Shown here: positions 1-7,426 of the stretch, one piece after another | Numbering within the stretch: the stretch's first letter is position 1 | Layout: each line of letters begins with the position of its first letter | Assembly (NCBI GenBank): GCA_913054135.1 | Contig: CAJXJK010000012.1 | Span: forward strand, 1-64,000 | DNA from: an uncultured Flavobacteriales bacterium | Lineage (GTDB): Bacteria; Bacteroidota; Bacteroidia; Flavobacteriales_D; Crocinitomicaceae | DNA length: 64,000 bases | Direction: 5' to 3' | Position numbers and translations under genes: made by a program | The notes under the pieces: model-generated | Seen by the model: only the letters and a program-made list of their open reading frames with translations | The model's database searches: none | What the model was told of the DNA's origin: nothing

Positions 1-24
1 GCCGCACCATTAAAATGATGCGGC
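1..24 (-). terminator. Stem-loop after cysN, probable terminator (cut by window edge)
   Basis: An inverted repeat with 11-base arms (1-11 and 14-24, one mismatch) starts 20 bases after the cysN stop codon. Any T-tract for minus-strand transcription would lie before base 1, so this is only part of a terminator. It suggests that the cys operon ends with cysN. Confidence 0.6.
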
Positions 25-44
25 TCTCAAAATTATGATTTGAT

Positions 45-1286
45 TTATTCCTTAAATCCTACGCCGACCGTAGCATTTGATTGTTCGTCAATCAAAACGA
101 AATAGCCATTCTTTTTATTGATGGCGTAATCATCCAAATATATTGGAGAAGCACTCTTTAAATCAATCTCACTAATTGAGTTCACTGACACATTTTCAGG
201 TAATGCTTCAAAAGCTAGCGAATCAAAATCTAATTGACTTTTTACGGCCGCTACTTTCACCGCTACTTTTGAAGATCCGTATTGCAAAATATACTTCTTT
301 GCGGGCACCAAATCTTCTTTACCTAACCAGCAAATCTTAGACTTAATAGATTTTAAACCAGTGAACTTCTCTGGTTGTAAACTCAACAAATCTCCTCTTG
401 AAATATCGATATCGTCCTCAAGTTCTAAAGTGACAGAATCTCCTGAATTCGCCTTTAATAGTGGGTTTTCATATTTATGAATGGCCTTGATCTTCGAAGT
501 TTGATCAGAAGATAAAACCGCAATCTCATCTCCTACCTTCACAGAACCTGAAACGACCTTACCTGCATAACCTCTGAAATCATGAAAGTCATCAGATTGA
601 GGACGGATGACATATTGAACGTTAAATCTAAAAGCATTATCATCTTCTAAAATCTTCACATTCTCTAAATAATCTAACAAAGTACTGCCGGTATACCAAC
701 TCATCTCTTGTGACTTTGAAGCTACGTTATCTCCGACCTTAGCTGAAACCGGAACAAAAGATAAGTCCCTATTGGTGAGATTAAACTTCGTTTCAAGAAC
801 TTTAAGCTCCTTTTTAATTTCGTTGAAGCGCTCTTCAGAGTAATCAACCAAATCCATCTTATTTATTACGAAAACAATGTTCTTGATCTCCATCAATGAA
901 GCTATGAACAAATGTCTTTTTGTCTGCTCAATAATCCCATTTCTAGCATCTATCAAGATCATGAATACTGAAGCATTTGATGCGCCGGTAATCATGTTTC
1001 GCGTGTATTCAACGTGTCCAGGACTGTCAGCAACAATGTACTTTCTGTTTGGAGTGTTAAAATAAATGTGCGCCACATCAATGGTTATCCCCTGCTCTCT
1101 TTCAGCAGTTAAGCCGTCTGTGATTAGAGATAAATCCATTTCGTTTAAACCTCTCTGTTCTGAAATTGATTTAATGTTTTCAATCTTATCTTTTGATAAC
1201 GATTGCGTGTCATAAAGCAGCCTGCCGATTAATGTACTTTTGCCATCATCTACGCTTCCTGCTGTTGAAATTCTTAAAATATTCAT
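45..1286 (-). CDS. cysN: Sulfate adenylyltransferase subunit 1 (GTPase subunit)
   Basis: Regulatory GTPase of ATP sulfurylase. With CysD it couples GTP hydrolysis to formation of adenosine 5'-phosphosulfate (APS) from sulfate and ATP in the cytoplasm. The 413-residue product has a translation-factor-type G domain: P-loop GSVDDGKS (residues 10-17), DSPGH (87-91) and NKMD (142-145), followed by EF-Tu-like beta-barrel domains. The length fits CysN alone; there is no C-terminal APS kinase (CysC) domain as in CysNC fusions. It lies 10 bp after cysD and is the last gene of the DUF2061-cysH-cysD-cysN run. Confidence 0.97.
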   Translation of the reverse strand: MNILRISTAGSVDDGKSTLIGRLLYDTQSLSKDKIENIKSISEQRGLNEMDLSLITDGLTAEREQGITIDVAHIYFNTPNRKYIVADSPGHVEYTRNMITGASNASVFMILIDARNGIIEQTKRHLFIASLMEIKNIVFVINKMDLVDYSEERFNEIKKELKVLETKFNLTNRDLSFVPVSAKVGDNVASKSQEMSWYTGSTLLDYLENVKILEDDNAFRFNVQYVIRPQSDDFHDFRGYAGKVVSGSVKVGDEIAVLSSDQTSKIKAIHKYENPLLKANSGDSVTLELEDDIDISRGDLLSLQPEKFTGLKSIKSKICWLGKEDLVPAKKYILQYGSSKVAVKVAAVKSQLDFDSLAFEALPENVSVNSISEIDLKSASPIYLDDYAINKKNGYFVLIDEQSNATVGVGFKE

Positions 1287-1296
1287 GTCTTACTAA

Positions 1297-2187
1297 TTAA
1301 AAATAACCTACTTCTTTTCTTTTCTCCATTGCTGCTTCTGATCTCTTGTCGTCAATTCGTGCTCCTCTTTCAGAAATCTCTGCCGCAACAATTTCTTCAA
1401 TTACTGTGTCGATATCTGCTGCCTCTGACTTAACAGCTGCCGTACAAGTCATGTCTCCAACTGTTCTGAATCTGACAGTGTCTTCAAAAACTATCTCAGT
1501 TGGAAGTTTATTGATGAAATCAGAATCTGACCATATCATGCCATCTCGCAAAAAGACGTTTCTTTTGTGTGCATAATAAACTGATGGAATCTGAATTTCT
1601 TCTCGTTTGATGTAATTCCAAACATCAAGTTCAGTCCAATTTGAAATTGGAAAAGCTCTGATATTTTCACCTTGATCTATGTTACCGTTCAAGATGTCAA
1701 ATAATTCAGGTCGTTGATTTTTAGCATTCCATTGTCCAAAATCATCTCTTACTGAGAACACTCTTTCTTTAGCTCTCGCTTTCTCTTCATCTCTTCTGGC
1801 TCCTCCAATACAAGCATTGAATCCATGTTTTTCTATTCCACCTAAAAGAGATACTGTTTGCAAAGCATTTCTGCTCGCATATTTACCCGTCTCTTCTTGG
1901 ACTAGTTTTGCATCTATGGCGTCTTGAACATGCTCAACATATAAGTTAAGCCCGTATTTTTTCACCAATTCATCTCTAAATGTGATGGTCTCAGGAAAAT
2001 TATGTCCTGTATCAACATGCATTAAAGGAAAAGGAACTGCCGCGGGATAAAAGGCTTTAATTGCCAAATGCACCAACACAATAGAGTCTTTTCCTCCTGA
2101 AAACAGTAATACTGGTTTATCAAATTGAGCCGCCACTTCTCTCATTATATAAATGGCTTCATTTTCTAATTCATCTAAGTAATTCAT
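1297..2187 (-). CDS. cysD: Sulfate adenylyltransferase subunit 2
   Basis: Catalytic subunit of ATP sulfurylase, a PP-loop ATP pyrophosphatase-fold enzyme that adenylates sulfate to APS. The PP-loop SGGKDS is at residues 30-35, and the C-terminal part holds a typical CysD TCTAAVKSEA segment. I chose the ATG at 2187, giving 296 aa starting MNYLDELENEA as in the family. A longer reading frame from 2217 would run into cysH. The gap to the cysH stop is 11 bp and to cysN 10 bp, so the three genes are probably cotranscribed. Confidence 0.96.
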   Translation of the reverse strand: MNYLDELENEAIYIMREVAAQFDKPVLLFSGGKDSIVLVHLAIKAFYPAAVPFPLMHVDTGHNFPETITFRDELVKKYGLNLYVEHVQDAIDAKLVQEETGKYASRNALQTVSLLGGIEKHGFNACIGGARRDEEKARAKERVFSVRDDFGQWNAKNQRPELFDILNGNIDQGENIRAFPISNWTELDVWNYIKREEIQIPSVYYAHKRNVFLRDGMIWSDSDFINKLPTEIVFEDTVRFRTVGDMTCTAAVKSEAADIDTVIEEIVAAEISERGARIDDKRSEAAMEKRKEVGYF

Positions 2188-2198
2188 ACTTATCTTTT

Positions 2199-2825
2199 TT
2201 AGGTGTGTAATCCGCACTCTCTATTTTCAAGTGCTTTTGTTGGATCATAATATTTAAATTCATTAGGCAAATTATGTGCTGCCAGATACACGTCAAGTTC
2301 TTCATCACTGAAATGATAGAAAGGGCTTACCTTGATTATTCCATCAGCTCCTGAACTAACAATATCAAGATTGTCTCTATGAGCTGTTTGTCCTTTTCTC
2401 AAATTGGTAAACCAAACCTTTGGTCTGTGCTTTGCCATTGCTCTACCAAATGGTTCTAATTTCACCTGTTGAGTAAAGAGTTTATGTTCATCAGAGTCAA
2501 CTCCAGGAATTCCCATCACACTGTCTCTATGAGCTACAGATTGAACCGGAACGAATAAATCTACATTGAGATTCAATTCCTTAATCAAGTCATTAGCATG
2601 TTTGTAGGTGTTGGGTGTATTGTAGCCCGTATCACACCAGATTACATCTAAATCTGACTTCACCTGTGTACATGCATGTAAAATTGCCGCTTCATAGGGT
2701 CGGAAATTAGTCGTAACAACCGCTTTTAATCCTAAATTAATTGCCCAACTCACTATCTCTTTCGGACTCTTTGATCTCAATTCCAAATTAATATCTGTGA
2801 AGGTTTCTAATTGTATCTCACTCAT
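2199..2825 (-). CDS. cysH: Phosphoadenylyl-/adenylyl-sulfate reductase (CysH family)
   Basis: Thioredoxin-dependent reductase that converts activated sulfate (PAPS or APS) to sulfite. The 208-aa product from the ATG at 2825 has the PP-loop fold, the segment WCDTGYNTPNTYK (about 63-75) and the C-terminal catalytic motif ECGLHT. The paired CC...CxxC cysteines that hold the 4Fe-4S cluster of assimilatory APS reductases are absent, which formally points to the PAPS type. No APS kinase is visible in this window, so the substrate is left open. It starts 1 bp after the DUF2061 gene. Confidence 0.92.
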   Translation of the reverse strand: MSEIQLETFTDINLELRSKSPKEIVSWAINLGLKAVVTTNFRPYEAAILHACTQVKSDLDVIWCDTGYNTPNTYKHANDLIKELNLNVDLFVPVQSVAHRDSVMGIPGVDSDEHKLFTQQVKLEPFGRAMAKHRPKVWFTNLRKGQTAHRDNLDIVSSGADGIIKVSPFYHFSDEELDVYLAAHNLPNEFKYYDPTKALENRECGLHT

Positions 2826-2826
2826 T

Positions 2827-3057
2827 CTAAATAAATTTATTCCATACTCTTTCATGTAGATAATACAACACCATTTTGGTGAAGACTTCTACCGATCCAA
2901 TTGAAAGTGCCATTGATACTTCTCCTGTTAGGATGTATGCAATGAGCATAGTATCAATTGTACCCACGATTCTCCAACTAATAGTCTTCATAAGGCTTTT
3001 AGCACTAGAGTCTCCTCGCCTGACTCCTCTTTTATGTACAAATTGATCTAAGAACAT
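2827..3057 (-). CDS. DUF2061 small membrane protein
   Basis: A 76-aa protein matching the DUF2061 pattern: a basic N-terminus, then SWRIVGTIDT followed by hydrophobic stretches (about residues 28-50 and 52-68) and a C-terminal HERVWNKF-type end. Members are small predicted inner-membrane proteins of unknown function, often next to sulfate assimilation genes. Here it is the first gene of the cys operon, 1 bp before cysH, with its own promoter and candidate operator upstream. Confidence 0.85.
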   Translation of the reverse strand: MFLDQFVHKRGVRRGDSSAKSLMKTISWRIVGTIDTMLIAYILTGEVSMALSIGSVEVFTKMVLYYLHERVWNKFI

Positions 3058-3071
3058 TTCAATTTTTTCGT

Positions 3072-3079
3072 CAAATGTA
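3072..3079 (-). promoter_or_regulatory. TAnnTTTG promoter core of the DUF2061-cysHDN operon
   Basis: On the minus strand this reads TACATTTG, an exact match to the Bacteroidota -7 core TAnnTTTG, 14 nt before the DUF2061 ATG. No clear TTTG -33 element is present; an inverted repeat occupies that position. Confidence 0.65.
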
Positions 3080-3083
3080 CACT

Positions 3084-3106
3084 TAATCTACAGATCTAGT
3101 AGATTA
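3084..3106. promoter_or_regulatory. Inverted repeat, candidate operator of the cys operon
   Basis: Perfect 8-bp arms TAATCTAC (3084-3091) and GTAGATTA (3099-3106) flank AGATCTA, which itself contains the palindrome AGATCT. The site covers the -33 region of the cys promoter and lies 15 bp after the stop codon of the Rrf2 gene. The adjacent Rrf2 protein is the obvious candidate binder, but this is inferred from position only. Confidence 0.6.
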
Positions 3107-3121
3107 TTATAGAAAAAATTT

Positions 3122-3541
3122 TTAAGCTTCTGCTTTTAGGATATCCGCAAGGGTCTTTTTCGCTACGATTTTAAGCGTTTCATCACGAACTTCAATCATG
3201 ATTTTATTTAGGCCGCAAGTTGTTTCGTCAACACATTCGTCGCAAGGCTCATAATAGTTAAGAGAAACGCATGGAAGTAAGGCTATTGGACCATTAAACA
3301 TTCTTATCACATCAGCCAATTCAACATCAGCAGGATCTTTCAAAAGATAATATCCACCACCTTTACCCATTTTACTGGTTAAAATTCCGGCTTTCTTCAA
3401 ATCTAACAGAATTGATTCTAGAAATTTCTTTGGGACTTTCGTTTTATCAGCAACTTCTGAAATAAGAATAGGAGTCTTCTCTTCTTGCTTACCTAAGTAA
3501 GTAAGGGCGTGAAAGGCATATTTGGTCTTTTTTGACAGCAT
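3122..3541 (-). CDS. Rrf2 family transcriptional regulator with Cys cluster
   Basis: A 139-aa Rrf2-type winged-helix regulator (the IscR/CymR/NsrR superfamily). The N-terminal helix-turn-helix covers about residues 1-70, with the typical GKGGGYYLLKDP wing at 59-70. Cysteines at 91, 100, 103 and 109 form a C-x8-C-x2-C-x5-C cluster that could hold an iron-sulfur cluster, as in redox-sensing members. It lies directly upstream of, and in the same direction as, the sulfate assimilation operon, so control of sulfur metabolism is likely. It has its own TAnnTTTG element 8 nt before the ATG. Confidence 0.9.
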   Translation of the reverse strand: MLSKKTKYAFHALTYLGKQEEKTPILISEVADKTKVPKKFLESILLDLKKAGILTSKMGKGGGYYLLKDPADVELADVIRMFNGPIALLPCVSLNYYEPCDECVDETTCGLNKIMIEVRDETLKIVAKKTLADILKAEA

Positions 3542-3549
3542 CTTGGGCT

Positions 3550-3557
3550 CAAATTTA
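3550..3557 (-). promoter_or_regulatory. TAnnTTTG promoter core of the Rrf2 gene
   Basis: Minus strand TAAATTTG, 8 nt before the ATG at 3541, lying in the short gap after the GNAT gene. Transcription from it would give a nearly leaderless message. Confidence 0.55.
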
Positions 3558-3558
3558 A

Positions 3559-3987
3559 CTATATTAAATTTTTAACAAAGTGAAATCCTTTTATTTCGTA
3601 ACCTAAATTGTAATAGAACTTGTGCGAACGTGGATTCTCTACGTAGGAATTTAGCTCTGAAGCCTCAATGTTTTCAGCCTTTGCATAGTCAAATATCCAG
3701 TCAAACAATTGGTTTCCTATTCCTTTATTTTTGTATTCATCTAAGATGATAACGTGATCAGCCTCAATACTTCTTCCGCAATAATGTCGGGTCATATACC
3801 AGAGACCACAAATACCTATTAACTTTTCGCCTTCAAACACCCCAAGGCATTTATAATTTTGACTTGCCATTTCTTTAATCCGTTCTTCAAGTAACTTCTC
3901 AGGCGTTTTGGTGTTTATAAGACGCATCAAGGGCAGAATAAGGGTTATGTTTTCAGATTCAATAAATTTGAATTCAATTTTTGGCAT
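3559..3987 (-). CDS. GNAT family N-acetyltransferase
   Basis: A 142-aa single-domain GNAT acyltransferase. It shows the acetyl-CoA binding segment DEYKNKGIGNQLFDW (an R/Q-x-x-G-x-G/A variant, about residues 88-102) and a late beta-strand region with NPRSHKFYYNLGY, where the FYxxxGF-like signature is clear. The substrate cannot be told from sequence. It is upstream of the Rrf2 gene on the same strand with a 17-bp gap, which may be partial cotranscription. Confidence 0.88.
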   Translation of the reverse strand: MPKIEFKFIESENITLILPLMRLINTKTPEKLLEERIKEMASQNYKCLGVFEGEKLIGICGLWYMTRHYCGRSIEADHVIILDEYKNKGIGNQLFDWIFDYAKAENIEASELNSYVENPRSHKFYYNLGYEIKGFHFVKNLI

Positions 3988-4172
3988 GATTTTATTTGCT
4001 TAGTTGTGTTTTAAATATAGAAATATCCTGTCTTAATAATTAGGATTTCTGCCTTAAATTACATATACTTATAGGGCAAGGATTTAATGATGGTTGATAG
4101 CGTTCAACCAACCAAGAAGTGATTTTTAACGTCTATATATAAGAGAACCAAACAATTAAAATGAAATAGCAG

Positions 4173-5042
4173 ATGAGACAACTAAAAATTACAAAACAGG
4201 TCACTAACAGAGAAACAGCATCATTAGACAAATATTTACAAGAAATTGGAAAGGTTGATTTGATCACCGCAGAGGAAGAAGTTGCTCTGGCCAAAAGAAT
4301 CAAAGAAGGCGATATGGATGCCTTAGACAGACTGACCAAAGCAAATTTGAGATTTGTTGTTTCAGTATCCAAACAATATCAAAATCAAGGTTTATCATTG
4401 CCTGATTTAATTAATGAAGGAAACTTAGGATTGATCAAAGCAGCTCAACGTTTTGACGAAACACGTGGTTTCAAATTCATCTCATACGCAGTTTGGTGGA
4501 TTAGACAATCAATTTTACAAGCACTAGCTGAACAAGCTAGAATAGTAAGATTGCCACTAAATAAAATCGGAATCATTAATAAGGTAAACAAGGCCTTTGC
4601 AAAACTTGAACAAGACTTAGGAAGAACTCCTACCATTGATGAGCTAGCAGAAGTGCTTGAGGTTTCAGAAAATGATGTTAAGGCTTCAATTGCAAATACG
4701 GGAAGACATGTATCTATGGATGCACCCCTTAAAGAAGGAGATGACGGATCTTCAAGCATGTATGACGTTCTTCAAAACCCTGAAAGCAACAATCCTGAAA
4801 AAGACTTGATTGCAGAATCTCTCAGAAGCGAAATAGAGCGTTCTCTTAGCACGCTTAAAATGCGTGAGGCAGATGTAATTAGATTATATTTTGGACTTGG
4901 AGCAACACCACCAATGACATTAGCTGAAATCGGCTTACGTTTTGATTTGACAAGAGAACGTGTTAGACAAATTAAAGAAAAGGGTATCCGAAAGCTTAAG
5001 AACACATCAAGAAGTAAGATGCTAAGGGCTTATTTAGGTTAA
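4173..5042 (+). CDS. rpoD: Primary-type RNA polymerase sigma factor (RpoD/SigA)
   Basis: Sigma-70 factor of 289 aa, the compact primary sigma type of Bacteroidota that lacks region 1.1. Region 1.2 ([16 protein letters not shown]), region 2 with [20 protein letters not shown] and [15 protein letters not shown], region 3, and region 4 with the helix-turn-helix [20 protein letters not shown] are all present. It is the best candidate for the sigma that reads the TAnnTTTG promoters seen across this window. Its end overlaps the convergent ABC transporter gene by 9 bp. Confidence 0.95.
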
Positions 5043-6833
5043 TTGAATGTTATTCAATTTGAAATAAACACCTTCTTTATTGGCAATAAGGTCATCATGT
5101 TTACCTTGTTCAACCACTTTACCACCTTCCAAAACTAAAATTGTATCAGCATTTTTAATGGTTGACAATCTGTGCGCTATTACGAAAGAAGTACGTCCTT
5201 GCATTAATTTTTCAAGAGCCTCTTGAACTAAATGTTCTGACTCTGCATCTAATGCTGATGTAGCTTCATCTAAAATCAAGATTTTCGGATCTTTAAGGAC
5301 TGCCCTAGCAATTGCAATTCTTTGCTTTTGCCCTCCTGACAACTGAATTCCCCTATCACCAACTGTTGTTTCCATCCCATCAGGGAATCCATTAATAAAC
5401 TCTAAAGCGTTAGCTTTTGCTGCAGCATCTTGAATTTGCTCTTCAGTAGCATTTACATTTCCGTACAATATATTCTCTCTAATAGTTCCTCCAAAAAGCA
5501 TTACTTCTTGAGGTACAATGGCCATTTGATCTCTCAAAGAAGACTTAGAAATATCTGAGATATTCTTGTTATCAAACAAGATTTTCCCTTTATCAATTGA
5601 GTAGAAGTTGAACAATAAAGAAGAAATAGTTGATTTTCCTGCTCCCGAGCTTCCAACAAGAGCAATGGTTTGGCCTGCCTCACATTTAAAAGACACCTCA
5701 TTAAGAACTTCAATTTCTTTTCTTTGAGGATAAGAAAATGAGACCCCCTCAAAAATCACTTCACCATTTAATTTAGTTACATTTTCTCCATCTGGTGACT
5801 CTACTTCTTCTTCTAGAAGATCCATCAGATGTTCAGTAGAACCAATTGCTTGTTGAAGTTTAGCATATAGATCAGGAATAGCAGCAAAAGACATTCCTAG
5901 AAAGATGGTGAACAATATGAAGGATGTAAATTCAGCCAGGTTAATTAATCCAGCCTCCTGCATTCCTTTAGCTTTCCAAATAACAAAAGAGATTCCACCA
6001 AACATGCAGAAAATTATGAAGGACACAAATAAGCCTCTCATAATACCTCTTCTCAAATTGATTTTCATTACAGATTTGATATTCTTGTCATATCTGTTGA
6101 TCTCATAAGATTCATTCGTAAAGGCTTTGACATTGATGATTCCTGAAAGAACTTCAACCAAAATAGAGTTTGATTTGGCAGATGCATCCTGTGCATTCTT
6201 TGAAAGCTTCTTGATATAACGCCCAAAGGTAATAGCGACAATTGCTAAAACAGGAACAACGGCAAGCATCCATAAGGCAAGCTCCCAAGAAATGGATAAA
6301 ATCCAGATGAGCGCAACTGTTATGGTCACGAACTGCCTAAAGAATTCAGCAATTGTCGTGTTTAAAGTTTCTTGTATAAGGTTGATATCTGTAGCTATTC
6401 TAGAAGTTAGCTCACCAACTTTGTTTCGGTTAAAAAAATCAATAGGGTAGCCTACCATGCGTGAGAAAGCAGTTTTCTTCACATCTCTCAATGTTTTTTC
6501 GGTAACAGTATTAAAGATTACGATTCTAAAAAATGAAAAAAGAGCTTGTAAAGCAAAAACAATGAGCATCACCAAAATGATGACATTAATGTTAGTCATA
6601 TCTACATTCGGAATATCTACCAAAGGATCATCTCCCTTTTCAGCACCTAAGAGCTGCCCCATTAGAGCAGGAAACATCATAGAAATAAGACTAGACCCAA
6701 CGAGAAATAGCCATCCAATGAGATAAATCCCTCTGTATGGACGCATATACGCGAAAATTCTTCGTGCTTTCTTGTAAGAATCTTTTGACAATTCTACTTT
6801 ATCTTTTTTATCTTTTCTACCGAATTTAGCCAT
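5034..6833 (-). CDS. ABC transporter half-transporter (MsbA/exporter type)
   Basis: Exporter-type ABC protein of 599 aa with a transmembrane domain (about residues 30-330) fused to a nucleotide-binding domain. Walker [10 protein letters not shown] (about 390), signature LSGGQ (about 496) and Walker [13 protein letters not shown] (about 520) are intact, so it is probably active as a homodimer. Lipid or multidrug export is the usual role; the substrate is not evident. I chose the ATG at 6833 ([12 protein letters not shown]); it lies 9 nt after a TAnnTTTG element. The gene converges on rpoD and the two share 9 bp. Confidence 0.93.
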
Positions 6834-6842
6834 GAATGAGTG

Positions 6843-6850
6843 CAAATGTA
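6843..6850 (-). promoter_or_regulatory. TAnnTTTG promoter core of the ABC transporter gene
   Basis: Minus strand TACATTTG, 9 nt before the ATG at 6833. It supports the ATG start over an upstream TTG in the same frame. Confidence 0.55.
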
Positions 6851-6913
6851 GCCACATCAATAAGACTAATTGTCACAATAATTCCATATTTTTGAAAATT
6901 CAGGCACCAAATG

Positions 6914-6943
6914 TTTGTATAAAGTTTAATTGTTGTATCTTTG
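6914..6943 (+). promoter_or_regulatory. Promoter of rpmH, full -33/-7 pair
   Basis: TTTG (6914-6917), 18 bp, then TATCTTTG (6936-6943). This is the best full match in the window to the Bacteroidota consensus TTTG ... TAnnTTTG. It leaves a leader of about 45-50 nt before rpmH. Confidence 0.75.
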
Positions 6944-6996
6944 CACTCCCTTTTAGGGCAATTTTGAAAGATAGATTACAATAAATAATATTAGCA

Positions 6997-7164
6997 ATGA
7001 GTAAGCAAAAGAGGACGTTTCAACCATCATTAAGAAAGAGAAGAAACAAACACGGATTCAGATCTAGAATGGCTTCTAAGAATGGTAGAGCTGTTTTAAA
7101 CAGAAGAAGAAAGAAAGGAAGAAAGAAAGTTTCTGTATCTTCTGAAAGAATGGCTAAGAGATAA
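6997..7164 (+). CDS. rpmH: 50S ribosomal protein L34
   Basis: A 55-codon gene. The product begins [20 protein letters not shown] and continues with [22 protein letters not shown], the diagnostic L34 sequence, very rich in Arg and Lys. It is a structural protein of the large ribosomal subunit. It has its own full promoter (6914-6943) and terminator (7191-7222), so it appears monocistronic. The usual neighbours rnpA and dnaA are not in this window. Confidence 0.97.
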
Positions 7165-7190
7165 TTCTCTTACTCTTAATAAAGATATTA

Positions 7191-7222
7191 AGCCTGTTCA
7201 CTATGTGAGCAGGCTTTTTTTT
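7191..7222 (+). terminator. Rho-independent terminator of rpmH
   Basis: Arms AGCCTGTTCAC and GTGAGCAGGCT (one G-T pair) around a short loop, followed by a run of eight T. Confidence 0.9.
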
Positions 7223-7426
7223 GTCCCTGAGCATGAATTCTAACTTAATACTTGCGGAGAGCATTGCAAGCCAATGAAACTACCTTAGAATTGGCTTAAG
7301 AGCTTAAGAAGTTCATAAAATGAATAATAAGTCTCTCTATTTACTTGGCGTCTTTATTACCACCGTAGTTTAAGACCAACTCTAAATCAGAAATCAACCG
7401 AAGACTACCCAGTAAAAAAACAGTGC

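Follow-up and report, generated by a model that had tools for sequence, protein, structure and literature searches.

A conserved palindrome beside a four-cysteine Rrf2 gene as the probable operator of a DUF2061-cysH-cysD-cysN operon in Bacteroidota

A 23-bp palindrome between an rrf2 gene and a group of sulfate genes in an uncultured Flavobacteriales bacterium very probably serves as operator for the Rrf2 regulator encoded next to it. Comparison of related loci points to this through the conservation of the site, its co-occurrence with the regulator, its fixed geometry relative to a promoter, and its absence from CysD loci in genomes that have no orthologue of the regulator; on these grounds, the proposal of a candidate Rrf2 operator, made in a first-pass annotation of this DNA, is supported. 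It is likely that an Rrf2 dimer on the 23-bp site blocks access to the promoter of the DUF2061-cysH-cysD-cysN operon, in effect a local repressor switch with essentially one target. The conservation of the site and its linkage to Rrf2 come from comparison, and we infer the steps beyond them: the dimer would bind directly by contacting the YCTA and TAGR half-sites, the bound protein would repress by occluding the promoter, and an Fe-S cluster or thiol signal would be sensed via four conserved cysteines. Feedback through such a cluster or through thiols is a natural guess for what would release Rrf2. The regulator-operator pair appears real and widely conserved. Its motif, cysteine pattern and taxonomic setting are new as far as literature searches show, while its kind is known; no described Rrf2 sulfur regulator for these Bacteroidota groups was found among the matches listed in the open-licence literature. 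The outcome is a concrete pairing of regulator and operator, its motif and promoter geometry defined, found beside sulfate genes in several Bacteroidota groups, and it makes testable what a four-cysteine Rrf2 protein senses.

The window, that is, the whole 64,000-nt stretch of DNA analysed, begins at base 1 of a 157-kb contig (G000:C12, where G000 is the window's own genome, of 4.05 Mb). On the minus strand, rrf2 (3541-3122) is followed by a 64-nt gap, from the rrf2 stop at 3122 to the DUF2061 start at 3057, which holds the repeat, and then by DUF2061, a cysH-like gene, cysD and cysN (Table 1). Among the matches listed, the named records with Rrf2 proteins nearest to that of the window include Crocinitomix and another Crocinitomicaceae record. 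The ECGLHT at the end of the CysH-like protein is presumably its catalytic-cysteine motif. The window's CysH is of a divergent type, and in some syntenic relatives the same slot is occupied by a canonical cysH (275.8 bits in L112); across syntenic loci, cysH types vary while the regulator and operator are constant. DUF2061 heads the operon in many loci, and may have a role in sulfate or sulfite transport.

Table 1. Features of the rrf2-cysN region, with coordinates in the window
Feature	Coordinates	Strand	Basis
Candidate operator: 23-bp palindrome TAATCTAC-N7-GTAGATTA; conserved core YCTA-N9-TAGR	3084..3106	.	Comparison with relatives
Putative -7 element TACATTTG, fits TAnnTTTG; starts 16 nt 3′ of operator centre	3072..3079	-	Consensus of Bacteroidota promoters
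rrf2: Rrf2-family regulator, 139 aa, C91-x8-C100-x2-C103-x5-C109	3122..3541	-	PF02082, TIGR00738, fold match CymR/IscR/RsrR/NsrR
DUF2061 small membrane protein; heads the putatively controlled operon	2827..3057	-	PF09834 89.9 bits
cysH-like PAPS/APS reductase, divergent type, C-terminal ECGLHT	2199..2855	-	PF01507 67.6 bits; NF002537 106.2 bits (cut-off 154)
cysD, sulfate adenylyltransferase subunit 2	1297..2187	-	NF003587 440 bits
cysN, sulfate adenylyltransferase subunit 1, 413 aa; contig end directly after	45..1286	-	TIGR02034 485 bits

The inverted repeat with 8-bp arms that had been annotated at 3084-3106 was verified there as an exact match, TAATCTAC-N7-GTAGATTA. The window contains 58 perfect repeats of this kind (8-bp arms, loop of 3-20 nt), whereas 20 first-order Markov resamples of the window gave 34.1 on average (range 22-51), and about 0.03 would be expected per 64 nt. 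The repeat is unusual for its 64-nt gap and unremarkable for the whole window. Because such repeats abound in the window, it is conservation, and not the palindrome alone, that carries weight. The exact repeat occurs once in the 4.05-Mb genome, and copies with up to three mismatches are not enriched genome-wide (33 versus 45 for a reversed-pattern control). The stricter motif YCTANTWNNYCKRTAGR was found in this genome at the window site and within one coding gene, with no others, and a wider regulon there was rejected; a site with one mismatch (G000:C4:203626) sits between sigma-factor-like and SanA-like genes, as judged by eye from their translations, and not between sulfur genes. Over 20 whole genomes, YCTANTWNNYCKRTAGR is not enriched either (57 matches versus 57 for the reversed control, as column sums), which leaves only sites near these genes as meaningful and no wider regulon as supported. 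A second perfect repeat, AAATTTAA-N5-TTAAATTT at 3551-3571, lies just before the rrf2 start and is unrelated to the operator motif.

With the window's Rrf2 protein as query, 30 of 59 genomes (its own included) gave a match at E <= 1e-20. A first set of 14 loci, made up of the window and 13 relatives, has Rrf2 followed by DUF2061 and/or cysH, the G003 contig ending after DUF2061. In all 14, a related 23-bp site, picked by eye, lies in the gap between rrf2 and the next gene. Positions C5, T6, A7, T9, T17, G19 and T22 are invariant in the alignment of these sites, with positions 4 and 20 always forming a complementary pair (T-A in eight, C-G in six). Conservation in relatives that share the gene order, on which the first-pass annotation had staked its proposal, was thus seen for a related site in the 13 relatives and, as described below, for its core in a larger set; it does not extend to the exact letters of the arms, as TAATCTA...TAGA is restricted to near relatives and YCTA-N9-TAGR is the conserved form.

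The pattern YCTA-N9-TAGR was fixed from the 14 loci and then tried on a second set of 80 loci from named genomes (the best 80 of at least 589 matches; Bacteroidota by their names). Of these, 31 count as cysH/cysD loci, defined by tblastn matches to three query proteins within 1.8 kb downstream, and other sulfate genes are possible among the remaining 49. Of the 31, 26 have the pattern no more than 250 nt from the Rrf2 stop (25 of 30 without L120, whose contig is already in the first set). By comparison, the rate in Markov resamples is 1.5%, and a distal control from the same loci, covering the stretch 1.5-3.5 kb beyond the Rrf2 stop, gave three matches in 60 kb. That the palindrome arose by chance might be argued from the 58 similar repeats in the window and from the parity of the strict motif with its control genome-wide. 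Nevertheless, recurrence at the same place in the second set, set against the resample rate, makes this explanation vanishingly improbable, and it was rejected. Three of the five loci without a match (L137, L178 and L179) carry, as judged by eye, a variant that differs by one base, while L160 and L162 are less clear.

In the 49 second-set loci where neither cysH nor cysD was found, the motif is present in 19, one of which (L118) is a truncated DUF2061 locus. The other 30 have no motif, so some Rrf2 orthologues may have other targets. L118 and L120 apparently overlap the contigs of L012 and L016 and were omitted from the sets of 57 sites and 39 loci used below. L120 still contributes to the 26 of 31, and L118 to the 19 of 49. 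L123 shows apparent overlap with G011:C37, and all three (L118, L120 and L123) are among the 112 proteins compared below. This overlap comparison covered second-set contigs against the 14 first-set loci and gave no further match. Some loci have further sites. For instance, in Maribacter, Polaribacter and Cellulophaga loci (L163, L185, L195 and L167), a pair of operator-like sites lies between rrf2 and DUF2061, with a spacing of about 70-80 bp. A CCTA-N9-TAGG palindrome is found 46-47 nt before rrf2 in four Algoriphagus loci (L131, L135, L148 and L186), where it is perhaps autoregulatory.

Adjacency by itself is no proof of binding by Rrf2, and another regulator common to these operons could in principle bind the site, with the position beside rrf2 being coincidental. 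This is very unlikely in view of how the motif is distributed. In a sample of 30 CysD loci (the best of 46 CysD matches in 44 genomes), the motif was found in 14 of 22 from genomes with an Rrf2 orthologue, the window's own included, and is missing from all eight from genomes without one (Fisher P=0.003, related genomes not being independent). In G009, G044 and G054, it is located 50-90 nt before DUF2061-cysH or cysC-cysD while Rrf2 is encoded elsewhere, and in G007, where Rrf2 is likewise not adjacent, it lies about 430 nt before DUF2061. The motif also stands beside Rrf2 genes with different neighbours, which again argues against another regulator of the cys operons. At motif-bearing Rrf2 loci without cysH or cysD, these neighbours include a sodium:sulfate/citrate-type transporter, cysteine dioxygenase, TauE/SafE and peroxiredoxin (names read from translations, with one example of each confirmed by Pfam), and we read in them a shared sulfur and thiol theme. 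In addition, the site is retained where the cysH type differs (L017, L018 and L028). CysD itself was found in 28 of 30 genomes with Rrf2 and in 16 of 29 without it (P=0.0009), and the rrf2 product is the sole PF02082 match in the window's genome. Consistent with this linkage, G032, which encodes an Rrf2 protein of 79% identity, gave no CysD match and is without the motif at its Rrf2 locus. The association has gaps. Eight of the 22 CysD loci with an orthologue have no strict site in the flank examined; of these, G010, G012, G038 and G048 have a variant or a site near an Rrf2 gene, and for G004, G005, G026 and G030 neither was found.

The base pair at operator positions 4/20 also varies with the protein, which is a further point, phylogenetically weak, against another regulator. 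Across 57 sites, T-A goes with Pro37 in 22 of 22 and C-G with Ser37 in 17 of 19, while 16 further sites are mixed. Base 4 correlates most strongly with residue 38 (phi 0.73), with residue 82 close behind (0.67). Only three to four independent changes lie behind the relation between helix residues 37-38 and base 4/20, with S37 changing four times on the tree, and with so few the relation cannot reach significance there; in these sequences, a tie between helix residues 37-38 and the base pair is suggestive only.

The -7 element of Bacteroidota promoters has the consensus TAnnTTTG. Downstream of the palindrome, TACATTTG runs from 3079 to 3072 on the minus strand and begins four bases past the repeat, which consequently covers the -33 region of the DUF2061-cysHDN promoter, as had been annotated. 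Similar geometry was observed among 39 cys-linked loci. In 27 of them, the window included, the operator centre is 14-16 nt before the -7 element, so that the 23-bp operator span lies over the -33 region (-33 class). Seven others have the centre over the expected transcription start (+1 class), 21-23 nt beyond the first base of the -7 element, and the remaining five have no strict -7 element nearby. Both placements would be expected to exclude RNA polymerase and are read as those of a repressor operator; the +1-class position, in particular, is hard to reconcile with activation.

Activation is nevertheless kept as the main rival, as the -33-class promoters could be activator-dependent. A TTG at -33 spacing was found in none of the 27, in 59 of 239 background elements and in five of the seven +1-class promoters (P=0.001 for 0/27 versus 59/239, the loci not being independent). 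At promoters of the -33 class, Rrf2 bound to the same operator would then replace the missing -33 contact and recruit RNA polymerase, and both the fixed spacing of 14-16 nt and the lack of a TTG in those 27 loci fit such a role. IscR, which activates suf from a promoter-proximal site, is a precedent. By contrast, the seven orthologue loci with the motif just after the -7 element, five of them with a -33 TTG, speak against an activator; the fixed operator bases themselves partly exclude TTG from the -33 window, and a change of sign between lineages would be less parsimonious. Altogether, activation seems unlikely, and repression is the preferred reading.

The repeat could also act at the RNA level, as a hairpin or terminator at the 3′ end of rrf2 or as part of an RNA switch. 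Fifteen nucleotides separate it from the rrf2 stop, and RNA of the 64-nt gap folds better than its shuffles (z -2.5). Against this, the motif can be as far as 196 nt from the Rrf2 stop in other loci (L183), tracks the -7 element, and occurs also before cysC/cysH operons away from rrf2, which makes such a role extremely improbable. An intrinsic terminator (GC stem plus T run) was rejected, with none found in 2900-3700, and so was a riboswitch or other cis-regulatory RNA, with no Rfam match at the gathering score in 1-7300 of the window.

The Rrf2 domain spans most of the window's Rrf2 protein, which scores above the curated cut-offs of its family models, with 122.9 bits for PF02082 (cut-off 30) and 106.7 for TIGR00738 (cut-off 73.3). 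The equivalog models of described members are not reached: CymR gives 61.2 bits (NCBIfam, cut-off 195), and the IscR/RirA/NsrR models fall far below their cut-offs (TIGR02010, 55 versus 207.55; NF008886, 55.1 versus 193; NF008240, 45.6 versus 182). The predicted structure is a standard Rrf2 winged helix (pLDDT 88.4), whose closest folds are CymR 3t8t (Z 15.7 over 122 residues, rmsd 2.7) and CymR 2y75 (Z 15.6), with further matches to IscR-DNA (Z 15.4), NsrR-operator (Z 13.2) and RsrR. A search with just the C-terminal 60 residues brought up no meaningful match in the PDB. Cysteines 91, 100, 103 and 109, listed in the first-pass annotation, are all present, and P-C-x8-C-x2-C-x(4-6)-C occurs in 112 of 112 Rrf2 orthologues, at least three duplicates among them; the conservation of C91 is partly circular, as one of the two peptide patterns for fetching loci contained it. 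In the predicted structure, the loop of the cysteine cluster (97-109) precedes the long C-terminal helix (110-128). Four recurring cysteines suggest, from sequence, a metal-cluster or thiol sensor; the cluster is compatible with sulfur, redox or Fe-S sensing and singles out no ligand.

Among characterized proteins, CymR, the cysteine regulator of Bacillus and Staphylococcus, shares the common Rrf2 fold and is the best structural match. It is described in PMC3828012 as a repressor of sulfur genes whose activity is set by a complex with CysK, and PMC9338935 states that B. subtilis CymR binds no Fe-S cluster. The 2y75 chain of CymR aligns with a gap over C91-C103 of the window's Rrf2, and CymR has a global regulon, whereas one local target is supported here. 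The Fe-S proteins NsrR, IscR and RirA have the common fold too and carry a cysteine cluster in the loop that leads into the long helix, and a 23-bp site is likewise reported for NsrR in PMC9338935. They differ in having three conserved cysteines, according to PMC5863699 and the abstract of PMC5411485, as opposed to four here in the arrangement C-x8-C-x2-C-x(4-6)-C. The SifR/HypR operators, given as TGTAA-N9-TTACA in PMC9218516, have half-sites that are also nine bases apart, but the half-site is TGTAA there and YCTA/TAGR here.

What the operon serves is less certain than its operator. The first-pass annotation had Rrf2 controlling sulfate assimilation; the operator supports such control of the operon, while assimilation is doubtful, because the window's genome (98.5% complete) lacks both a match to the NIR_SIR sulfite reductase family (PF01077), which 11 of 14 control genomes do have, and a siroheme SUMT scoring above the cut-off (one family, TIGR01469; best 32.9 bits versus 185). 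NIR_SIR is likewise missing in two genomes of the same genus, G001 (one contig, 99% complete) and G002, and nothing recognisably sulfur-related follows cysN in G001. A single partial NIR_SIR match does exceed the cut-off (48.4 bits) in G003, fourth among the genomes of this genus (93% complete, 4% contaminated), and this argues against absence throughout the genus. More widely, 31 of 44 genomes with CysD have no NIR_SIR match; among their CysD loci examined, cysH is present in seven and cysC instead in ten, and the cysC-type loci may serve sulfation. An Rrf2 orthologue was found in 13 of 14 NIR_SIR genomes. A sulfite reductase of an unrecognised kind, or one lost in assembly, is possible.

The physiology is perhaps one of sulfite supply rather than cysteine. 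Cysteate synthase uses sulfite, and sulfite from cysHDN could feed cysteate. The window's genome encodes a cysteate-acyltransferase-like protein, whose matches to a structure named cysteate-C-fatty acyltransferase (28eh, E=2.6e-168) and to one of a 7-keto-8-aminopelargonate-synthetase-like enzyme (7u7h, 2.7e-169) are far better than that to serine palmitoyltransferase (8.6e-68). Cysteate acyltransferases catalyse an early step of capnine/sulfonolipid synthesis, according to PMC9304779 and PMC11211663, the latter of which, in the part available, does not mention sulfite. A gene of this type is present in 57 of 59 genomes, some without a CysD match, so its presence alone does not tie it to cysHDN and the sulfonolipid link stays hypothetical; no motif was found in the stretches examined around the cysteate-acyltransferase-like and SorA-like genes. 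It is conceivable, if doubtful, that here and in several relatives the four-cysteine Rrf2 switch governs a sulfate-to-sulfite module whose sulfite, left unreduced, supplies cysteate for capnine/sulfonolipid lipids, and our estimate was lowered slightly once the G003 match had been weighed. If true, this would be a previously undescribed four-cysteine Rrf2 regulator of sulfite supply for Bacteroidota sulfonolipids. Whether sulfate reduction serves sulfonolipid synthesis in genomes that have no recognisable sulfite reductase is likewise made testable by the regulator-operator pair. As no sulfite reductase was found, the cell may oxidise surplus sulfite through a SorA/SoxC-like enzyme. A gene for such a sulfite dehydrogenase (G000:C10, L241:2676-3908; NF052245 233 bits, cut-off 600) is located directly after a BioF/Kbl-type acyltransferase gene.
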